In this document: one piece after another, positions 1-14,802 of the stretch | Numbering within the stretch: the first letter of the stretch is position 1 | How the letters are laid out: each line of letters begins with the position of its first letter | Assembly (NCBI RefSeq): GCF_000336755.1 | Contig: NZ_AOLK01000022.1 | Location: forward strand, 320,748 to 384,747 | Direction of reading: 5' to 3' | DNA: 64,000 nucleotides | From: Haloferax elongans ATCC BAA-1513 | Lineage (GTDB): Archaea; Halobacteriota; Halobacteria; Halobacteriales; Haloferacaceae | Program-made: the position numbers and the translations under genes | Notes under the pieces: model-generated | What the model was told of the DNA's origin: nothing | Database searches by the model: none | What the model saw: the letters and a program-made list of their open reading frames with translations, nothing else

Positions 1-893
1 ACGAGCACGTATCCAACCCCCAACACCACGTTCGCGCCCGCAGTCCGGGCACCGAAGGCGTATTTCCCGGCAACCCCGCCGCTGCCGTGGCACATCGGAA
101 GGCCGCCGAAGGGGACCGCGAGGAGGTTCATCACGCCCATGCTGGAGGCGAGTTCGTCGGCCGACACGTCGCGGTCGAAGTAATCCGAGAGGAGGACCGA
201 TGTCGCGAGGGCGGCGTTGCCGACGGTCATCGCCAACTGGGCGGCCGCCGCTTCGAACGCCGGGAGGGTGACAGTCGCGAGCGTGAACGTTGCAGGCGTG
301 AACAGCGCGCTGTCGCCGAGCGACGGAATCGTGAGTCCGAGCGTTCCAACGTCGGACGCTGCAATCCCGGCACCGACCACGAGGACGGCGAGAGCGCTCA
401 GATTCCAGCGCCGGGCGAGAGCCGCGAAGGCGGCGATGCCGACCGCAACACCGGCCAAAAGCGGGTCGCCGACACCCAGTTCGATGCCCGTCGAGAGGAG
501 AACGAGTGCGACGCCGAACTGGACGCCGCGAACGACGGGCGCGCCGATGTAGTGGCTCAGTCGGCCGAGTGAGTTCGTTCGACCGATAGCGAGGAGGGTG
601 ACACCGAGAACGAGACCGGCGACGAGCGCCTCACCAGTGGTGACTGTCTCGGCGAGGAGGAGGGCCGCGAGCGCCTTCATCGGTTCGACCGAAAGCGGGG
701 CCGCGTAGTACAGGCCCCACACGATCTGAAAGACACCGAACCAGACGAGGACGAGCGTCAGCGAGAGGTCGGTCAGCCGTGCGACGGCGACCACGATGGG
801 GAGGACCGTAACCGAATCACCGACCGCACCGGTGAACTCGTTCCACGCGAAATCGACGGCGAGTTCGTCGCGATACGGCAGCGATACGGCCAT
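1..893 (-). CDS. MOT1-type sulfate/molybdate transporter (3' end cut by window)
   Basis: The reading frame starts at the ATG at 893 and runs off the left edge, so only about 297 N-terminal residues are seen. The product is a polytopic membrane protein made almost entirely of hydrophobic helices. It begins MAVSLPYRDELAVDF, followed by an FTGAVGDSVTVLP segment. Near the window edge it carries GVMNLLAVPFGGLPMCHGSGG followed by AGKYAFGARTAG, the signature of the MOT1/SulP-like molybdate or sulfate transporter family (MFS_MOT1). It probably imports sulfate or molybdate across the cytoplasmic membrane. A molybdopterin operon lies about 22 kb away, which fits molybdate but is not proof. The substrate cannot be settled from sequence. 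Confidence 0.8.
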   Translation of the reverse strand, partial: MAVSLPYRDELAVDFAWNEFTGAVGDSVTVLPIVVAVARLTDLSLTLVLVWFGVFQIVWGLYYAAPLSVEPMKALAALLLAETVTTGEALVAGLVLGVTLLAIGRTNSLGRLSHYIGAPVVRGVQFGVALVLLSTGIELGVGDPLLAGVAVGIAAFAALARRWNLSALAVLVVGAGIAASDVGTLGLTIPSLGDSALFTPATFTLATVTLPAFEAAAAQLAMTVGNAALATSVLLSDYFDRDVSADELASSMGVMNLLAVPFGGLPMCHGSGGVAGKYAFGARTAGANVVLGVGYVL

Positions 894-977
894 CCAGACA
901 CAGTACGATGGATTCCTGCAAATATGTTTGCGTAACGATAGGTGTGCGCAGACAGAGTGAATTGAAACTGGATTCAG

Positions 978-1364
978 TTACTCCCACTTCGAGATGTCGA
1001 GGTGGACGCCGCCACGGATGAAGTCGATTCCCATGAAGACCATCATGGGGACGATTGTGACGATGGCCAGCGCGCCGAAGAAGACGTCTCCGCGCGTTCC
1101 ACCGAGCTCTGGCGCAACGTTTGCGACCATCCCGATGCCGAAACAGAGGTATCCGAGGCCTGCGACGACGTGCCAGTCGAGCGATGCTGCTCCGACGCCG
1201 ACCGAGTCGCGCAGTGCGGCGGTAATCAAGAGCAGTCCGGCCATGGCGAACCCGCCCATCCAGACCCATTGGTGGAGGTGTTCGGGCGAGCCAAAGAGTG
1301 CTATCGGGAGGGCGAGAACGACCATGTCGAACACGCCGAGTCCGAAGAGAAACCGTCGTTTCAC
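978..1364 (-). CDS. Small four-helix membrane protein, conserved haloarchaeal type
   Basis: This 128-residue protein starts at GTG (1364), preceded by a GAGGTCAC Shine-Dalgarno-like stretch. It has about four hydrophobic segments (roughly residues 6-24, 34-50, 65-85 and 95-113) separated by short loops. There are no catalytic motifs, so no function can be assigned. It stands alone, 84 bases after the MOT1 gene and in the same orientation, but the spacing argues for its own promoter or for read-through into MOT1. The open frame continues upstream into the isochorismatase gene, but that part is Arg-rich shadow sequence and was excluded. Confidence 0.7.
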   Translation of the reverse strand: MKRRFLFGLGVFDMVVLALPIALFGSPEHLHQWVWMGGFAMAGLLLITAALRDSVGVGAASLDWHVVAGLGYLCFGIGMVANVAPELGGTRGDVFFGALAIVTIVPMMVFMGIDFIRGGVHLDISKWE

Positions 1365-8014: not shown

Positions 8015-8443
8015 TCATCGCTGGTCGGGCGAGTCGGACACGAGCCGAATCGCGTCGGCGTCCTCGAACGCGTCGGCGACGCGCCCATCGTGGCGAAATC
8101 CGAGAGCCTCGTAACACGCTCGGGCGGCTTCGTTGTCGGGATGCACCAACACGGTGAGCGACGCGTCTCCTCGCCGGGTTCGGAGTGCATCGACCAGCGC
8201 GGTGGCACGCCCCTCGCGTCGTGCATCGGGTGAGACTGTGAGTTCGGCAATGTGGTCGCCGGTGGCGAGAAGATACCCGACCGGGCGGTCAGCAGTATCG
8301 ACAGAGACGAGAACTGTCCCGACCGCTGGCCACGCATCGAGAAGTTCGGGCGACGGCTCAGAGATGAGTCGCTGGAGCGACGAGAGAGCCGAGCGGTCGC
8401 CCGGACGCGCAGGTCTCACAGGCACAGTTACAGCGGAAGCCAC
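8015..8443 (-). CDS. GNAT-family N-acetyltransferase
   Basis: This 142-residue GNAT protein has the acetyl-CoA motif in VSPDARREGRATALVDALRTRR, followed by VHPDNEAARACYEALGF. The first possible start is a GTG at 8443 overlapping the DUF92 gene by 16 bases. Nearer GTGs at 8425 and 8419 would reduce or remove the overlap and fit an N-terminus beginning close to PVRPARPGD. The two genes share a strand and are probably co-transcribed. The substrate is unknown. Confidence 0.85.
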   Translation of the reverse strand: MASAVTVPVRPARPGDRSALSSLQRLISEPSPELLDAWPAVGTVLVSVDTADRPVGYLLATGDHIAELTVSPDARREGRATALVDALRTRRGDASLTVLVHPDNEAARACYEALGFRHDGRVADAFEDADAIRLVSDSPDQR

Positions 8444-9741
8444 GCAACGACGGCTGCCAGCGCCCCGGCGAGGGTCGCGAGGAAGTTGACCGCCTGGTTG
8501 CCGAGGCCGGAGCCTTCGACGGTCGCGCCGAGGAGGCTGTCGACTGTCATGCCCGCAACGCCGCCGACGAGCACCGCGAGTGCAGCAGGCTCAGTCGAAA
8601 GCGGCAACAGGACGTACGCGAGCGCGGCGACGAGTGCCGAACCGACGATACCGGCGACTTCGCCCTGCCACGTGACACCGCCGTCGGTTCCCGGGGGAAC
8701 GGGCTTGAACGTCGTGATGAGCCGCGGGTTATCGAACAGGCCGCCGATTTCGCTGGAGAGCGTGTCACTCATCGCGGCGGCGACGGAGCCGCCGAACGCG
8801 AGGATGAAGAGGTTGCTACCGAGATTGTGCCCCATAGTCTGTGTGGCAGCGTAGCCGACGACCGCGACGAGCGACACCGCAGAGTTGCCGAGGACGTTGC
8901 CCGTCCCGCGAGCCCCTTCGTTCTTCTCTGCGACGCCGCGTTCCGCCTTGTGGTCGTAGCGGAACTTGGTGGCGAGGCCGCCGATAGAGAAGAACGAGAC
9001 GAGGACGATAGCCCAGCCGAACCCGCCGAGACCGATGGCAACCAAGAGGAGAAGGACGCCCGTGAGCATCCCGGCGAGTGACGCGGTTCCGAGCGCGTAG
9101 GCGGCATAACCGAGTGCGACCGTCAGCGCGATGGAGATGCCGGTCTGGGTGGGTGAGACGGGGCCTGCGAGGACTTCGACACCCCACAGGACGAACCCGA
9201 CGGTAATCATGACCAGCGGGTCGTCGCGCTCGTAGAAGGCCGTTCGGAGGAGTGCAGCGACGAGAGCGCCCAGTGCTGCGACGAACGTAAACCGAGCGAG
9301 CGGCGCTGGCGCTCCCGTCACGTTGGCGACGGCCAATTGGCCGACAGTCGCGGCCACGAGTCCCGCGCCGACAAATCCGGCGGTCTGCAAGAACTCGTCG
9401 TCGAGGCGAGCGTCAGCCAGTCGCCCTCCGAGGTTCCCGTAGGCGAGTACCAACACGGCAGCGACGAACGCCGTGAGTGGCATCTTGACCCGGGGGACCG
9501 TCGCGAGAAGTGCCAGTCCGGTCGCGGCGAGCGCGAATCCGGCCAGTCCGTTGAGACGGCCGTCCTCGCGGTCTCCCGGTCGCGCGAACAGCTCGAACAG
9601 CGGCCCGTCGTCGATGACGAAGGCCGCCAAGAGCGCGACTGCGGCGAACGGTGCAAACGCGGCCGAGCCGAGACTGGGGGCCGCGAGGGCCAACGTCCCG
9701 ACAACCGCGAATCCACCCGCTCGCCGTAGTGTGGAAGTCAC
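8428..9741 (-). CDS. DUF92 membrane protein (VTE6/polyprenyl-phosphate kinase-like)
   Basis: This 437-residue polytopic protein starts at GTG 9741. The C-terminal half carries the DUF92 landmarks GGLATKFRYDHKAERGVAEKN, GTGNVLGNSA, AAMSDTLSSEIG, DGGVTWQGEVAGIVGS and DSLLGATVEG. The N-terminal half adds further helices typical of archaeal members. DUF92 includes plant VTE6, a phytyl-phosphate kinase, and is related to CTP-dependent polyprenol and dolichol kinases. The neighbouring cis-prenyltransferase genes suggest a role in making or recycling polyprenyl phosphates for glycan transfer. That role is inference. Confidence 0.85.
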   Translation of the reverse strand: MTSTLRRAGGFAVVGTLALAAPSLGSAAFAPFAAVALLAAFVIDDGPLFELFARPGDREDGRLNGLAGFALAATGLALLATVPRVKMPLTAFVAAVLVLAYGNLGGRLADARLDDEFLQTAGFVGAGLVAATVGQLAVANVTGAPAPLARFTFVAALGALVAALLRTAFYERDDPLVMITVGFVLWGVEVLAGPVSPTQTGISIALTVALGYAAYALGTASLAGMLTGVLLLLVAIGLGGFGWAIVLVSFFSIGGLATKFRYDHKAERGVAEKNEGARGTGNVLGNSAVSLVAVVGYAATQTMGHNLGSNLFILAFGGSVAAAMSDTLSSEIGGLFDNPRLITTFKPVPPGTDGGVTWQGEVAGIVGSALVAALAYVLLPLSTEPAALAVLVGGVAGMTVDSLLGATVEGSGLGNQAVNFLATLAGALAAVVAWLPL

Positions 9742-9852
9742 ATCGTTCGGTTTCCCCGACGCGCACTTAACCCTCCCGACATCGGTGACTTCGGGGACGG
9801 CTCCCACGGCGAACCCGAAGCATTAGGGGCGTCCGCGGCGCGACGACATCGT

Positions 9853-10461
9853 GTGGGACTGTACGACTACTACCTCGCCCTCCGGTTTCGATTCGACAGT
9901 GCCGACACCCCGGACCACGTCGCGGTCGTCATCACCGAACGCGACCTGTTAGAACAGGGTGCCTACGACACGCTCGCCGAGTTCCTCGACTGGGCGTTCG
10001 AGCACGGCACCGAGCGCGTCACCGTCTCCGTGAGCGTCCTCGACGAAGCAGTGATTCCGACTCTCTCGCGCGAACTCCGCGATATCGAGAGTCCCCATCC
10101 CGTCGCAGTCCGCGAACCCGGCGACACCGAACGCGTCGACGAACCCGTACAGGTGAACATCGGCCTCGGTGGCAAACGCGAGTTCGCAAACGTCGTTCGG
10201 TCGTTGGCCGAAGAAGTCGACGACGGCGAGTTGGACCCCGACGACATCGACGCCGAAGAGGTCGAAGAGCGTCTGGTGTTCCCCGACGAACCCGATTTGG
10301 TCGTCAAGACCGGCGCAGAGCGCCTCTCGGACTTCATGATTTGGCAGTCGGTGTATGCAGAACTGTACTTCACAGACGTGAACTGGCGGGACTTCCGAAA
10401 GCGGGACTACCTGCGGGCGTTGCGGGATTATCAGGACAGACAGCGGAGATTTGGGCGGTAG
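9853..10461 (+). CDS. Cis-prenyltransferase-like protein lacking catalytic motif (NgBR/Nus1-like subunit)
   Basis: This 202-residue protein (GTG start) has a clear undecaprenyl diphosphate synthase-type C-terminal half: VVKTGAERLSDFMIWQSVYA, then ELYFTDVNWRDF and a terminal RRFGR containing the RxG motif (R199-F-G201). The N-terminal half is decayed. HVA (22-24) is followed by VVITERDLL instead of the DGNRR catalytic motif, so the catalytic Asp is absent. This matches non-catalytic subunits of heteromeric cis-prenyltransferases such as NgBR/Nus1. The intact cis-prenyltransferase at 13858-14802 lacks an RxG ending, so the two are likely partners. Confidence 0.8.
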   Translation: MGLYDYYLALRFRFDSADTPDHVAVVITERDLLEQGAYDTLAEFLDWAFEHGTERVTVSVSVLDEAVIPTLSRELRDIESPHPVAVREPGDTERVDEPVQVNIGLGGKREFANVVRSLAEEVDDGELDPDDIDAEEVEERLVFPDEPDLVVKTGAERLSDFMIWQSVYAELYFTDVNWRDFRKRDYLRALRDYQDRQRRFGR

Positions 10462-10570
10462 GCCGAACTTCGCGTCGGCTTCGTCGGCGAGGTGAGGTGG
10501 GCGATAGTCGAGATGTCTTCGCAGGGAAACAAAGACACACATATACTTGTTACTACATTGTCTTTTTCGT

Positions 10571-10936
10571 ATGGACGCCCTCCAGACCGAGCACCCGACC
10601 AAGTGGGTGAAAAGAGAGGATAGTATTTTTCCACTCACCTTCCTCTTCGTGCTCTTGCTCGGCCCTCCACTGGAACCGATACAGTGGGAGTGGGTCGTCG
10701 TCGGTGCAATTCTCGTGTTTCCGTGGTTGTACGCCGAATTCCAATTCGATGACTGGCGGTCGTGGCTCCCGTCTGTGGTCTTTTGTGCGACGATACTCTT
10801 GTTCGGCCCGCAATACGAGGGCGTGGCTATCTCGCTATTCGGAGGAGTAAGCGCTGGGATGCTTGGTATGTCTGGCTGGAGAGCCTACAGACGACGGATT
10901 CGCTCTGCGCCGACACAGAGACACCGTCCTCGATAG
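10571..10936 (+). CDS. Hypothetical small membrane protein
   Basis: This 121-residue protein begins MDALQTEHPTKWVKREDSIF. It has about three to four hydrophobic segments (PLTFLFVLLLGPP, WVVVGAILVFPWLY, SVVFCATILLFGP and VAISLFGGVSAGMLG). No family is recognised. It lies between the non-catalytic cis-prenyltransferase and the serpin genes, and its base composition is less GC-rich than the neighbours. It may have arrived with the serpin block. Confidence 0.55.
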   Translation: MDALQTEHPTKWVKREDSIFPLTFLFVLLLGPPLEPIQWEWVVVGAILVFPWLYAEFQFDDWRSWLPSVVFCATILLFGPQYEGVAISLFGGVSAGMLGMSGWRAYRRRIRSAPTQRHRPR

Positions 10937-10967
10937 TCTGCAATCGAATCCTCGAGCGTCTACACTG

Positions 10968-11006
10968 GATAACACAAACGCGCATCTGAGTTTACAGAAA
11001 GCACAT
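10968..11006. repeat. Serpin-1 upstream repeat (copy 1)
   Basis: This 39-base segment (GATAACACAAACGC ... CACAT) matches positions 12405-12443 upstream of the second serpin at 37 of 39 bases. The duplicated unit therefore included the promoter region as well as the gene. It ends 24 bases before the ATG. Confidence 0.8.
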
Positions 11007-11030
11007 CGTTAGGTAGCTGACAGTTGTACT

Positions 11031-12392
11031 ATGAATCGGCGCGAACTACTTGCGCTGTCGGGTGCCCTCGCCGCCGCGACGCTGTCCGGGTGTACCGGCA
11101 GTGGGCAGGCAGACCCGACGACGCAGACCGACGCGGATACCACGACAACACCACCGACAGAGATGACCATGACACCGGCAGACGAACCCCCGGCTGGCGA
11201 GCCGAGTGTAGACGACGAGCGATTGGCCGCGCTCGCGTCCGGGAACGCCGAGTTCGCCCTCGATTTACACGCGCACCTCGCCAGCCAAGACGACGGAAAC
11301 CAGTTCCTCTCACCCTATAGCATCTCGGTCGCGTTGGCGATGACTTACGCTGGCGCTCGGGGTGAGACGCGCAAGCAGATGGAAGAGGTCCTCCACTACA
11401 CCCTCGGCGAGGATATCCATCCGGCGTTTTCTGACCTCCAGAGTGCGCTGGAGAAACGCGAGACTGCCACCGGCCCCGGGAGCGAAGAGGAATTGGATGC
11501 CTTCCAACTGGCCGTGGCGAACGCACTTTGGGGGCAAGAAGCGTACTCCTTCTCCGAGGACTTCCTCGCGTCGCTGGAGGAACACTACGGCGCAGGGTTG
11601 CAGCGAGCGGACTTCGCAAACAACCCTGACGACGAGCGAAAACGTATCAACGACTGGGTTGCTGACCAGACCGAAGATCGAATCGAGAACCTGCTGCCAG
11701 CAGGGTCTATCACCCCGGATACAGCCCTCGTGCTCACCAACGCCATCTATTTCATGGCGAACTGGGAGCACAAGTTCGACCCCAAGAAGACCCAAGACGG
11801 GACGTTCACCGCGCTGGATGGTTCGGAATCGACGGTTCCGATGATGCAACAGGACCTCAGGACGAACTACGCATCGCTCCCCGGCGCAGAGGCCGTTGAG
11901 TTGCCCTACGTGGGTGGAGACGTTTCGATGGTGTTGATTCTCCCCGACGAAGGCACCTTCGAGGAGTTCGAAAGGAACCTCGATGCGAGCCAACTATTCG
12001 GCATCTTCGACGAACTGAGCGACGCGGAGGGGACGCTCGTGTTCCCCAAATTCGAATTCAAGACGAAAGTCCAACTGAAAAAGGCGCTTTCGGACCTCGG
12101 GATGCCCGTCGCGTTCGAGAGGGCTGCCAACTTCAGCGGGATGTCCGCGGACGGCCAGCAAAACCTCAAAATCGACGATGTGCATCACGAGGCGTTCGTC
12201 TCAGTGGACGAAGAGGGGACCGAGGCGGCAGGTGCAACAGCAGCGGTCATCGGGTTTACCTCGCTCCCGCCGTCGTGGGGCGAACTCCGATTCGACCGCC
12301 CGTTCCTCTTTGCGATTCGTGACCGGCTGACCGACGCGGTGCTCTTTCTCGGCCGGGTCGTCGACGCCGGGGCGGCGCAAGGAAGCGAGTAA
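11031..12392 (+). CDS. Serpin, Tat lipoprotein (copy 1)
   Basis: This 453-residue protein starts MNRRELLALSGALAAATLSGC: a twin-arginine signal with lipobox Cys21, so it should be exported folded and anchored by lipid. A Thr/Pro-rich linker (about 22-60) leads to a full serpin domain with NQFLSPYSISVALAMTYAGA, ALVLTNAIYFMANW, ELPYVGGDVSMVLILP and GELRFDRPFLFAIRD. The reactive-centre hinge EEGTEAAGATAA (from 394) has the small residues needed for loop insertion. Aligned to alpha-1-antitrypsin, the scissile bond would be T410-S411. It is a likely suicide inhibitor of serine (or cysteine) proteases at the cell surface. A tandem paralogue follows. Confidence 0.95.
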   Translation: MNRRELLALSGALAAATLSGCTGSGQADPTTQTDADTTTTPPTEMTMTPADEPPAGEPSVDDERLAALASGNAEFALDLHAHLASQDDGNQFLSPYSISVALAMTYAGARGETRKQMEEVLHYTLGEDIHPAFSDLQSALEKRETATGPGSEEELDAFQLAVANALWGQEAYSFSEDFLASLEEHYGAGLQRADFANNPDDERKRINDWVADQTEDRIENLLPAGSITPDTALVLTNAIYFMANWEHKFDPKKTQDGTFTALDGSESTVPMMQQDLRTNYASLPGAEAVELPYVGGDVSMVLILPDEGTFEEFERNLDASQLFGIFDELSDAEGTLVFPKFEFKTKVQLKKALSDLGMPVAFERAANFSGMSADGQQNLKIDDVHHEAFVSVDEEGTEAAGATAAVIGFTSLPPSWGELRFDRPFLFAIRDRLTDAVLFLGRVVDAGAAQGSE

Positions 12393-12404
12393 CGCCAGCG
12401 AAGC

Positions 12405-12443
12405 GATAACACAAACGCCCATCTGAGTTTACAGAAAACACAT
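12405..12443. repeat. Serpin-2 upstream repeat (copy 2)
   Basis: This is the second copy of the 39-base upstream segment, 37 of 39 bases identical to 10968-11006, ending 24 bases before the serpin-2 ATG. The spacing to the start codon is conserved in both copies, so it probably contains promoter sequence. Confidence 0.8.
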
Positions 12444-12467
12444 TGTCGGACGAGTGAAATCACCAGT

Positions 12468-13826
12468 ATGAACCGGCGCGAACTACTTGCGCTGTCGGGT
12501 GCCCTCGCCGCTGCGACGATAGCGGGATGTACCGGTGACGGACAGGGAGGTCCGACGACCCAAACTGACACAGAGACCACGACAGCGCCGCCGACACAGA
12601 CGACCGAAGAACCGACAGGGGAACCGCCCACGGGCGAACCAAGCGTGGACGACGAGCAGTTAGCTGCGCTCGCGTCCGGGAACGCCGCATTCGCCCTCGA
12701 CCTGCACACGCATCTCGCCAGCCAAGATGGCGGCAACCAGTTCCTTTCACCCTACAGCATCTCAGTTGCACTTGCGATGACCTACGCCGGTGCCCGGGGA
12801 GACACCCGCAAGCAGATGGAAGAAGTACTCCACTATACCCTCGGCGAGGATATCCATCCGGCCTTTTCTGACCTGCAGGCCGCGCTGGAGCAGCGACAGA
12901 CTGCGATGGACCCCATCGACGGGTCCGAAGTGGACGCCTTCCAACTGGCCGTGGCAAATGCGCTGTGGGGTCGGGAGGGCTATCCCTTCTCCGAGGACTA
13001 TCTCGCGTTGCTGGAAGAGTACTACGGGGCTGGACTCCGGGAAGCAGACTTCACCGGCGACCCCGACGGCGAACGAAAGCGCATCAACGGCTGGGTCGCT
13101 GATGCAACCGAAGACCGCATCGAAAACCTGCTGCCAGCGGACGCCATCTCGCCGCAGACGGTGCTCGTGCTCACCAATGCTATCTACTTCATGGCCGAGT
13201 GGTTGCACAAGTTCGACCCCGAGAAGACCACCGATGGGACGTTCACCGCGCTGGATGGGTCCGAATCGACCGTCCCGCTCATGCGACAGGAGTTGAAGAC
13301 CCAGTACGCGGACCTTCCCGGTGCGCAGGCCATCGAACTCCCCTACGTCGGCGAGGAGGTGTCGATGGTGCTCATTCTCCCCGACGAAGGAACCTTCGAG
13401 GAGTTCGAAAAGAACCTCGACGCGAGCCAATTGTTCGGCATCTTCGACGAACTGGGCACCAGTATCGGAGAGCTCGTCTTCCCCAAATTCGAGTTCGAGA
13501 CCGAGGTGCAACTCTCGAAGGCGCTTTCGGACCTCGGGATGCCTGCCCCGTTCGGTGCGGGTGCCGACTTCAGCGGAATGGTCGCGGGAGGCGACGCCGG
13601 GCTCCACATCGACGAAGTGTTCCACAAGTCGTTCGTCTCAGTGGACGAGGAAGGAACCGAGGCCGCCGCCGCGACTGCCGTGCTCGTCGAAGAGTCACTG
13701 CCGCCGTCGTGGGGTGAACTCCGATTCGACCGGCCGTTCCTCTTCGCGATTCGCGACCGGCCGACAGACGCGGTGCTCTTCCTCGGTCGGGTCGCCGACG
13801 CTGGAAACGCACAGGGAAGCGAATAA
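12468..13826 (+). CDS. Serpin, Tat lipoprotein (copy 2)
   Basis: This 452-residue tandem paralogue of the preceding serpin has an almost identical signal (MNRRELLALSGALAAATIAGC, lipobox Cys21) and conserved serpin core. The hinge EEGTEAAAATAV is fully inhibitory in type. The reactive loop is one residue shorter than copy 1 and reads VLVEESLPP, so the predicted P1-P1' pair becomes E409-S410 instead of T-S. It therefore probably targets a protease with different specificity. It is likely a surface-anchored protease inhibitor, transcribed from its own duplicated promoter region. Confidence 0.95.
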   Translation: MNRRELLALSGALAAATIAGCTGDGQGGPTTQTDTETTTAPPTQTTEEPTGEPPTGEPSVDDEQLAALASGNAAFALDLHTHLASQDGGNQFLSPYSISVALAMTYAGARGDTRKQMEEVLHYTLGEDIHPAFSDLQAALEQRQTAMDPIDGSEVDAFQLAVANALWGREGYPFSEDYLALLEEYYGAGLREADFTGDPDGERKRINGWVADATEDRIENLLPADAISPQTVLVLTNAIYFMAEWLHKFDPEKTTDGTFTALDGSESTVPLMRQELKTQYADLPGAQAIELPYVGEEVSMVLILPDEGTFEEFEKNLDASQLFGIFDELGTSIGELVFPKFEFETEVQLSKALSDLGMPAPFGAGADFSGMVAGGDAGLHIDEVFHKSFVSVDEEGTEAAAATAVLVEESLPPSWGELRFDRPFLFAIRDRPTDAVLFLGRVADAGNAQGSE

Positions 13827-13857
13827 GCTTCTAGTACCAGTCTCAGCCCAGGAATCC

Positions 13858-14802
13858 TCAGTCAGCAGACTTCTCGGTTCGAGACTCTTGTGTCCGCCGC
13901 TCCAACTCGGCGGAGACCTCGTCTGCCCCCGAGGAGGGGAGTTGCCCGCGTAGCCGCCCGGAGACGGCACGCGCGTCTGCTAACTCCACTTCGGCGACGG
14001 CGCGAACCAGCGCCACGGCGCGCTCGGTCCGGGTTCGCTGCCACGACTTCTCCCGCGACTCGTAGGTTCGAATCCCGCGGAGGAAGTCGATTTTCGAGAA
14101 CTCCGGCCAGAAGGGCGCACAGAAGTAGACGGCCGCCTCGTTCCCGTTGGCGTGCCACGGCAGGAAGTTCGAGGTCCGTTCGTCGCCGCCAGTGCGGATG
14201 ATGAGGTCCACGTCTCGAACCGTTTTCCGAGAGAGGCGCTCGTCGACTGCCTCTACGTCGACGTCCGCCGGGTCGATGGTCCCGGACTCGACTGCGCGAC
14301 ACACGTCTCGCGCCGCGCTGAGGAGTTCGGCTCGGCCGCCGTAGGCGAGTGCGATGTTGAGCGTGAAGCCGTCGTAGGCGGCGGTTCGCGACTCGGCGTA
14401 CTCGACGGCGTCTCGGACGCGGTCGGGCAGCATGTGGACCTCGCCAATCGCGCGGACCGAGACTTCGCGCTCGTGGACGCGGTCCGCGTCGGCGAAGTCG
14501 TACAACTTCTGTTCGATGAGGTCGAAGAGCGCTTCCTGCTGTTCGGGCGGTCGGTCGAAGTTCTCGGTCGAAAAGGTATAGAGCGTGAGTTCTTCGATAC
14601 CGAGTTCTTCACACCATTCGAGCACCTGCTCTGTCGTCTCAGCCCCCGCCCGGTGACCGTCTGAGGCGTCGTCGCCGTGCTTTCTGGCGTAGCGACGATT
14701 TCCGTCCTGAATTATCGCGACGTGGGTCGGTCCGTCTCCGATTTCACGCCGGAGAACGCGCTCGTACGCGCGCCGAAAACCACGTCGAACCCACCCAAGC
14801 AT
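13858..14802 (-). CDS. uppS: Cis-prenyltransferase (UPP synthase family), catalytic
   Basis: This 314-residue protein carries the catalytic HVAIIQDGNRRYA motif (Asp33), TLYTFSTENFDRP, ALAYGGRAEL and the LIIRTGGDERTSNF motif. It should condense isopentenyl diphosphate onto an allylic primer to build the long-chain polyprenyl diphosphate that becomes the dolichol-type glycan carrier. The C-terminal part (RTYESREKSWQRTRTERA and about 50 further residues) lacks the RxG motif that single-subunit enzymes carry at this place. The complementary motif is present in the protein at 9853-10461. The gene is convergent with serpin 2. Confidence 0.9.
   Translation of the reverse strand: MLGWVRRGFRRAYERVLRREIGDGPTHVAIIQDGNRRYARKHGDDASDGHRAGAETTEQVLEWCEELGIEELTLYTFSTENFDRPPEQQEALFDLIEQKLYDFADADRVHEREVSVRAIGEVHMLPDRVRDAVEYAESRTAAYDGFTLNIALAYGGRAELLSAARDVCRAVESGTIDPADVDVEAVDERLSRKTVRDVDLIIRTGGDERTSNFLPWHANGNEAAVYFCAPFWPEFSKIDFLRGIRTYESREKSWQRTRTERAVALVRAVAEVELADARAVSGRLRGQLPSSGADEVSAELERRTQESRTEKSAD

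Follow-up and report, generated by a model that had tools for sequence, protein, structure and literature searches.

Do two neighbouring proteins of the cis-prenyltransferase family, each of which lacks a motif that the other one carries, make up one enzyme? The question is raised by a locus of Haloferax elongans ATCC BAA-1513, where a short and a long member of the family are encoded within a window (the whole stretch of DNA analysed) of 64,000 nucleotides. The original prediction had placed two open reading frames here. It had described the short protein as having lost DGNRR while keeping the C-terminal half of the family and a terminal RxG, and the long protein as having DGNRR and RTGGDERTSN with RxG missing. 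Both reading frames exist at the positions given in Table 1 and the description of their motifs stood, with one correction: the minus strand carries the long gene, so that it and the short gene face each other tail-to-tail. Chance or misannotation as the source of the pattern was ruled out by the family matches and by its recurrence in the short and long open reading frames of relatives. From the evidence below, we infer that the two proteins pair and are active together, and that the two genes very probably encode the subunits of one obligate heteromeric cis-prenyltransferase.

Table 1 Features of the locus. Positions are those of the window. Column Basis denotes the family, alignment, model or translation used.
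Feature	Position	Strand	Details	Basis
DUF92 integral membrane protein, divergent from short gene	8428..9807	-		PF01940
Putative short cis-prenyltransferase subunit	9853..10461	+	202 aa, GTG start	PF01255, alignment A1
RFGR codons (RxG motif and one residue), before stop	10447..10458	+		translation
Stretch between the subunit genes: 129-aa ORF and two serpin genes	10547..13826	+	not part of the enzyme	
Two tandem serpin genes, lipoprotein-like N-termini	11031-12392, 12468-13826	+		PF00079, E 1e-108 or better
Putative long cis-prenyltransferase subunit	13858..14802	-	314 aa	PF01255, alignment A2, AlphaFold2 model

The start of the short open reading frame is backed by a conserved MGLYD N-terminus in relatives. 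In the Pfam search, the short protein matched only positions 117-219 of the PF01255 profile (E 2.5e-25). Its N-terminal half is still recognisable (PDHVAVVITERDL vs PTHVAIIQDGNRR), with TERDL in place of the DGNRR of active enzymes, so that the catalytic DGN has become TER. The protein ends in QRRFGR, which supplies RxG. In an alignment of 51 short proteins (A1), the N-terminal half is kept and the catalytic DGN is gone; no variation is seen at R196, R198, R199 and G201, and a single residue follows the glycine before the chain ends. Every haloarchaeal short open reading frame that we extracted ends in R[FY]G and one further residue. The AlphaFold2 model of the short protein, which is of moderate confidence, has the cis-prenyltransferase fold (pLDDT 83, weak at about residues 151-170 and at the tail), and its best fold matches are bacterial UppS, NgBR being matched too. 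A profile of the short proteins covers human NUS1/NgBR end to end with an E-value of 3e-8, bacterial UppS scoring stronger. These features point to a non-catalytic subunit in a role like that of NgBR or Nus1.

The long protein matched positions 1-217 of the 219 of PF01255 (E 1e-68, Pfam). It carries DGNRR at residues 33-37, together with RTGGDERTSN and R203, R209 and S211, and no RxG was found past its core, where the residues read YESREKSWQR. In an alignment of 57 long proteins (A2), D33, G34, N35, R36, R37, E80, N81, R84, R203, R209 and S211 are invariant; they align with D34, G35, N36, R37, R38, E81, N82, R85, R205, R211 and S213 of human DHDDS. Of these DHDDS residues, D34, R37, R38, E81, N82, R85, R205, R211 and S213 are ligands of Mg2+ or of the substrates or are in contact with the tail of NgBR (PMC7573591). 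DHDDS K84, which is part of the NgBR contact, corresponds to D83 in the long protein here. All extracted long proteins with an intact N-terminus carry DGNRR, and the canonical position of RxG is without this motif in every long protein.

The AlphaFold2 model of the long protein (pLDDT 91) shows a C-terminal helical extension of about residues 237-313, with helices at 237-272 (a long one), 274-287 and 290-313 at or after the end of the core. Its top fold matches are human DHDDS chains, with about 300 columns aligned, ahead of bacterial UppS; the rmsd of these matches is high, so the extension is not superposed rigidly. Likewise, human DHDDS ranks first among solved structures with a profile of the long proteins (240 bits vs 233 for UppS). 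DHDDS and the haloarchaeal long protein share a C-terminal helical extension past the core, and in human DHDDS the C-terminal helix-turn-helix is described as incompatible with the tail-crossing network, the role of which is taken by the NgBR tail (PMC7573591). Since some non-haloarchaeal long proteins (e.g. L348) are without the extension, the constant feature is the loss of RxG and not the extension. The long protein would be the catalytic subunit, in a role like that of DHDDS or Rer2.

In order to relate the pair to known systems, we compared its make-up with homodimeric and heteromeric enzymes. Homodimeric UppS of bacteria and archaea is of the same family and fold (PF01255) and carries both DGNRR and RxG on a single polypeptide, whereas in the haloarchaeal pair the two motifs are split over two chains and neither protein has both. 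What was found is the make-up of a heteromer: a catalytic subunit without RxG and a partner with RxG and without DGN, both present, and no complete single chain. Human DHDDS/NgBR and yeast Rer2/Nus1 show the same division: one subunit carries DGNRR, and its partner ends one residue after a C-terminal RxG. NgBR differs in having an N-terminal membrane region and in its much greater divergence. The archaeal short protein is closer to bacterial UppS than to NgBR.

The original prediction had also pointed to a heteromer described in Methanosarcina, which belongs to the same phylum. MM_0618/MM_1083 of M. mazei (Emi et al. 2019, as cited in PMC8131916) is a demonstrated heteromer; its products are C45-C50 chains that probably serve the glycosyl carrier lipid. 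It has the same two-paralogue make-up as the haloarchaeal pair and, going by the motifs, presumably supplies RxG in trans likewise. A Methanosarcina-like genome in our sample (G234) has one long gene, one short gene and one MM_0014-like copy ending in TLGG. The two genes are not neighbours in the Methanosarcina-like family, whereas in haloarchaea they usually are, tail-to-tail.

The heteromer would make polyprenyl diphosphate, the precursor of the dolichyl phosphate glycan carrier, with a product length of probably about C50-C60. In the long subunit, DGNRR would hold Mg2+ and the allylic diphosphate, and R203, R209 and S211 would hold the isopentenyl diphosphate. The short subunit, a dead paralogue, would form a physical pair with the long one through the dimer interface that is usual in cis-prenyltransferases, and would be needed for catalysis. 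Its C-terminal RFG may thread into the active site of the long subunit and so replace the tail that the long subunit has lost.

The original prediction had named the short protein in species without the long one as a refuting result, and a survey of genomes put this to the test. In the source genome (99.7% complete), these are the only two PF01255 genes and the search found no complete third enzyme elsewhere, which leaves no complete enzyme for the polyprenyl chain. We surveyed 145 haloarchaeal genomes from 58 genera; all 145 carry the short gene and 144 the long gene. The sole genome with the short gene and no long one (G072) is a draft of 120 contigs, where a direct search was also negative. 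Among the long proteins of the class, no match reached profile position 219. In four haloarchaeal genomes a single short gene is accompanied by two long ones, so the stoichiometry or the choice of partner may differ between genomes.

These four genomes would also fit a long protein that works as a homodimer without RxG, with the short protein as a dispensable regulator, and MM_0014 is indeed an active homodimer of this kind, with a TLGG end and C25-C40 chains (PMC8131916). However, the long protein here does not have a TLGG-type tail, the short gene was present in every haloarchaeal genome searched, and the RxG tail of the short protein is invariant phylum-wide (A1), which is not expected of a dispensable protein. 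We therefore consider such a homodimer very unlikely and retain the obligate heteromer.

In the phylum as a whole, the PF01255 family was found in 117 of 119 Halobacteriota genomes, and no PF01255 gene was found in G151 and G159 (family f17). The 95 non-haloarchaeal carriers all have the long type, and the short type was confirmed in 93 among the matches listed. The motif split that the original prediction had likened to the eukaryotic heteromers extends, as complementary loss, throughout Halobacteriota. A full-length profile match (1-219) in G205 was considered as a complete enzyme and rejected, its C-terminus being RKRQEGV, without RxG. As a separate observation, G002 carries an extra diverged cis-prenyltransferase (L109, 1411-3228, minus strand) with DGH for DGN and RxG absent, near which a 233-aa open reading frame (636-1337, minus strand) resembles a PAP2-type phosphatase.

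The order of the two genes is also conserved. They lie within 10 kb of each other in 113 of the 145 haloarchaeal genomes and are convergent in all 113; the gap has a median of 561 bp. Outside the class, 28 of 28 close pairs are convergent, and several have gaps of only 7-44 bp between the family matches. In L348, the long and short frames, read by eye from the sequence, overlap by 13 bp tail-to-tail (2678-2690), which puts the RxG codons antisense to the end of the long gene. In 32 of the 145 haloarchaeal genomes, and in all genomes of several non-haloarchaeal families, the two genes lie apart. The tail-to-tail order in many families suggests that it is ancestral and would fit an inverted duplication.

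On its other side, the short gene has the DUF92 gene as divergent neighbour in 47 of the 53 haloarchaeal loci with enough flank, and DUF92 adjoins it in 8 non-haloarchaeal loci. One could take this as a sign that the short protein, as an inactive paralogue, does some other job, such as that of a partner of the adjoining membrane protein. That would leave unexplained both the RxG tail at the exact C-terminus and the complementary loss in the long protein, and the conserved convergent neighbour on the opposite side is the long gene; the chance that the short protein has such a job is slight indeed, and the pairing with the long protein is preferred. A phytyl-phosphate kinase of plants belongs to the DUF92 family. 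The protein may therefore plausibly act in the phosphorylation of polyprenol, and is possibly an enzyme of the polyprenol- or phytol-kinase type.

In order to see how far the split extends, we searched four other archaeal phyla for PF01255, which was carried by 56 of 59 Asgard, 51 of 51 Thermoproteota, 50 of 50 Methanobacteriota and 50 of 51 Thermoplasmatota genomes. Almost always there is one gene spanning profile positions 1-219, i.e. with RxG; the tails were read directly in a sample of C-termini. The split spans Halobacteriota and is missing from the four other phyla sampled, with one possible exception. This is a Bathyarchaeia-like genome of the Thermoproteota sample (G363), in which one copy (L337, 1858-2709, minus strand) has DGNRR and no RxG, and another (L338, 1851-2648, minus strand) has DENLN where DGNRR is expected and the C-terminus RRFGR. 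In our tree, L338 groups with a single-copy Bathyarchaeota enzyme (support 100/96). This is an apparent separate and younger split, the two copies being on different contigs of an apparent MAG where contamination is possible. A few Thermoplasmatota (L339, L341, L342) have a second catalytic copy without RxG beside a complete single-chain enzyme, possibly an early stage of a split. As Asgard archaea carry a single complete enzyme, the eukaryotic split may be independent of that in Halobacteriota.

The tree was estimated from 87 rows including long proteins, short proteins and DHDDS. The short proteins form one clade (100/100) and so do the long proteins (90/59). A clade of the long proteins and DHDDS is absent from the best tree and was not rejected by the AU test (p-AU 0.376); neither was a grouping of the long with the short proteins (p 0.387), nor one of the short proteins with the Bathyarchaeia-like short copy (p 0.354). 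The branch of NgBR (4.75) is too long for its placement in the tree. Because the AU tests reject none of the three groupings, the phylogeny is not decisive on shared eukaryotic ancestry. That Asgard archaea have one complete enzyme speaks for independent splits in eukaryotes and in Halobacteriota, of which the tree gives no proof. We would put at even chances that Halobacteriota acquired the heteromer on their own, in their common ancestor, when a single complete gene underwent tail-to-tail inverted duplication and complementary loss, and that a third and younger split is under way in a Bathyarchaeia-like lineage. On this account one copy would have lost RxG and the other DGNRR, parallel to DHDDS/NgBR, a course of events for and against which we see the balance as level.

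The open-access literature yielded no report of a cis-prenyltransferase heteromer in haloarchaea, most subscription papers being outside this search. The heteromer type itself was already known; what is new is its phylum-wide spread, the fixed convergent order of its genes, its absence from the sampled Asgard archaea and its apparent repeat elsewhere. For haloarchaea, including tractable laboratory species, the enzyme of the polyprenyl chain is assigned to the two-subunit type, which removes the assumption that either gene annotated as 'UppS' acts alone, and a split known from one methanogen is found to be phylum-wide. Since the split is absent from the sampled Asgard archaea, it is improbable that eukaryotes received their heteromer in finished form from an Asgard ancestor. 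With their small and deeply sampled pairs, Halobacteriota lend themselves to asking why a homodimer becomes a heteromer in which one subunit is dead, which is of interest for human DHDDS and NUS1 disease as well.
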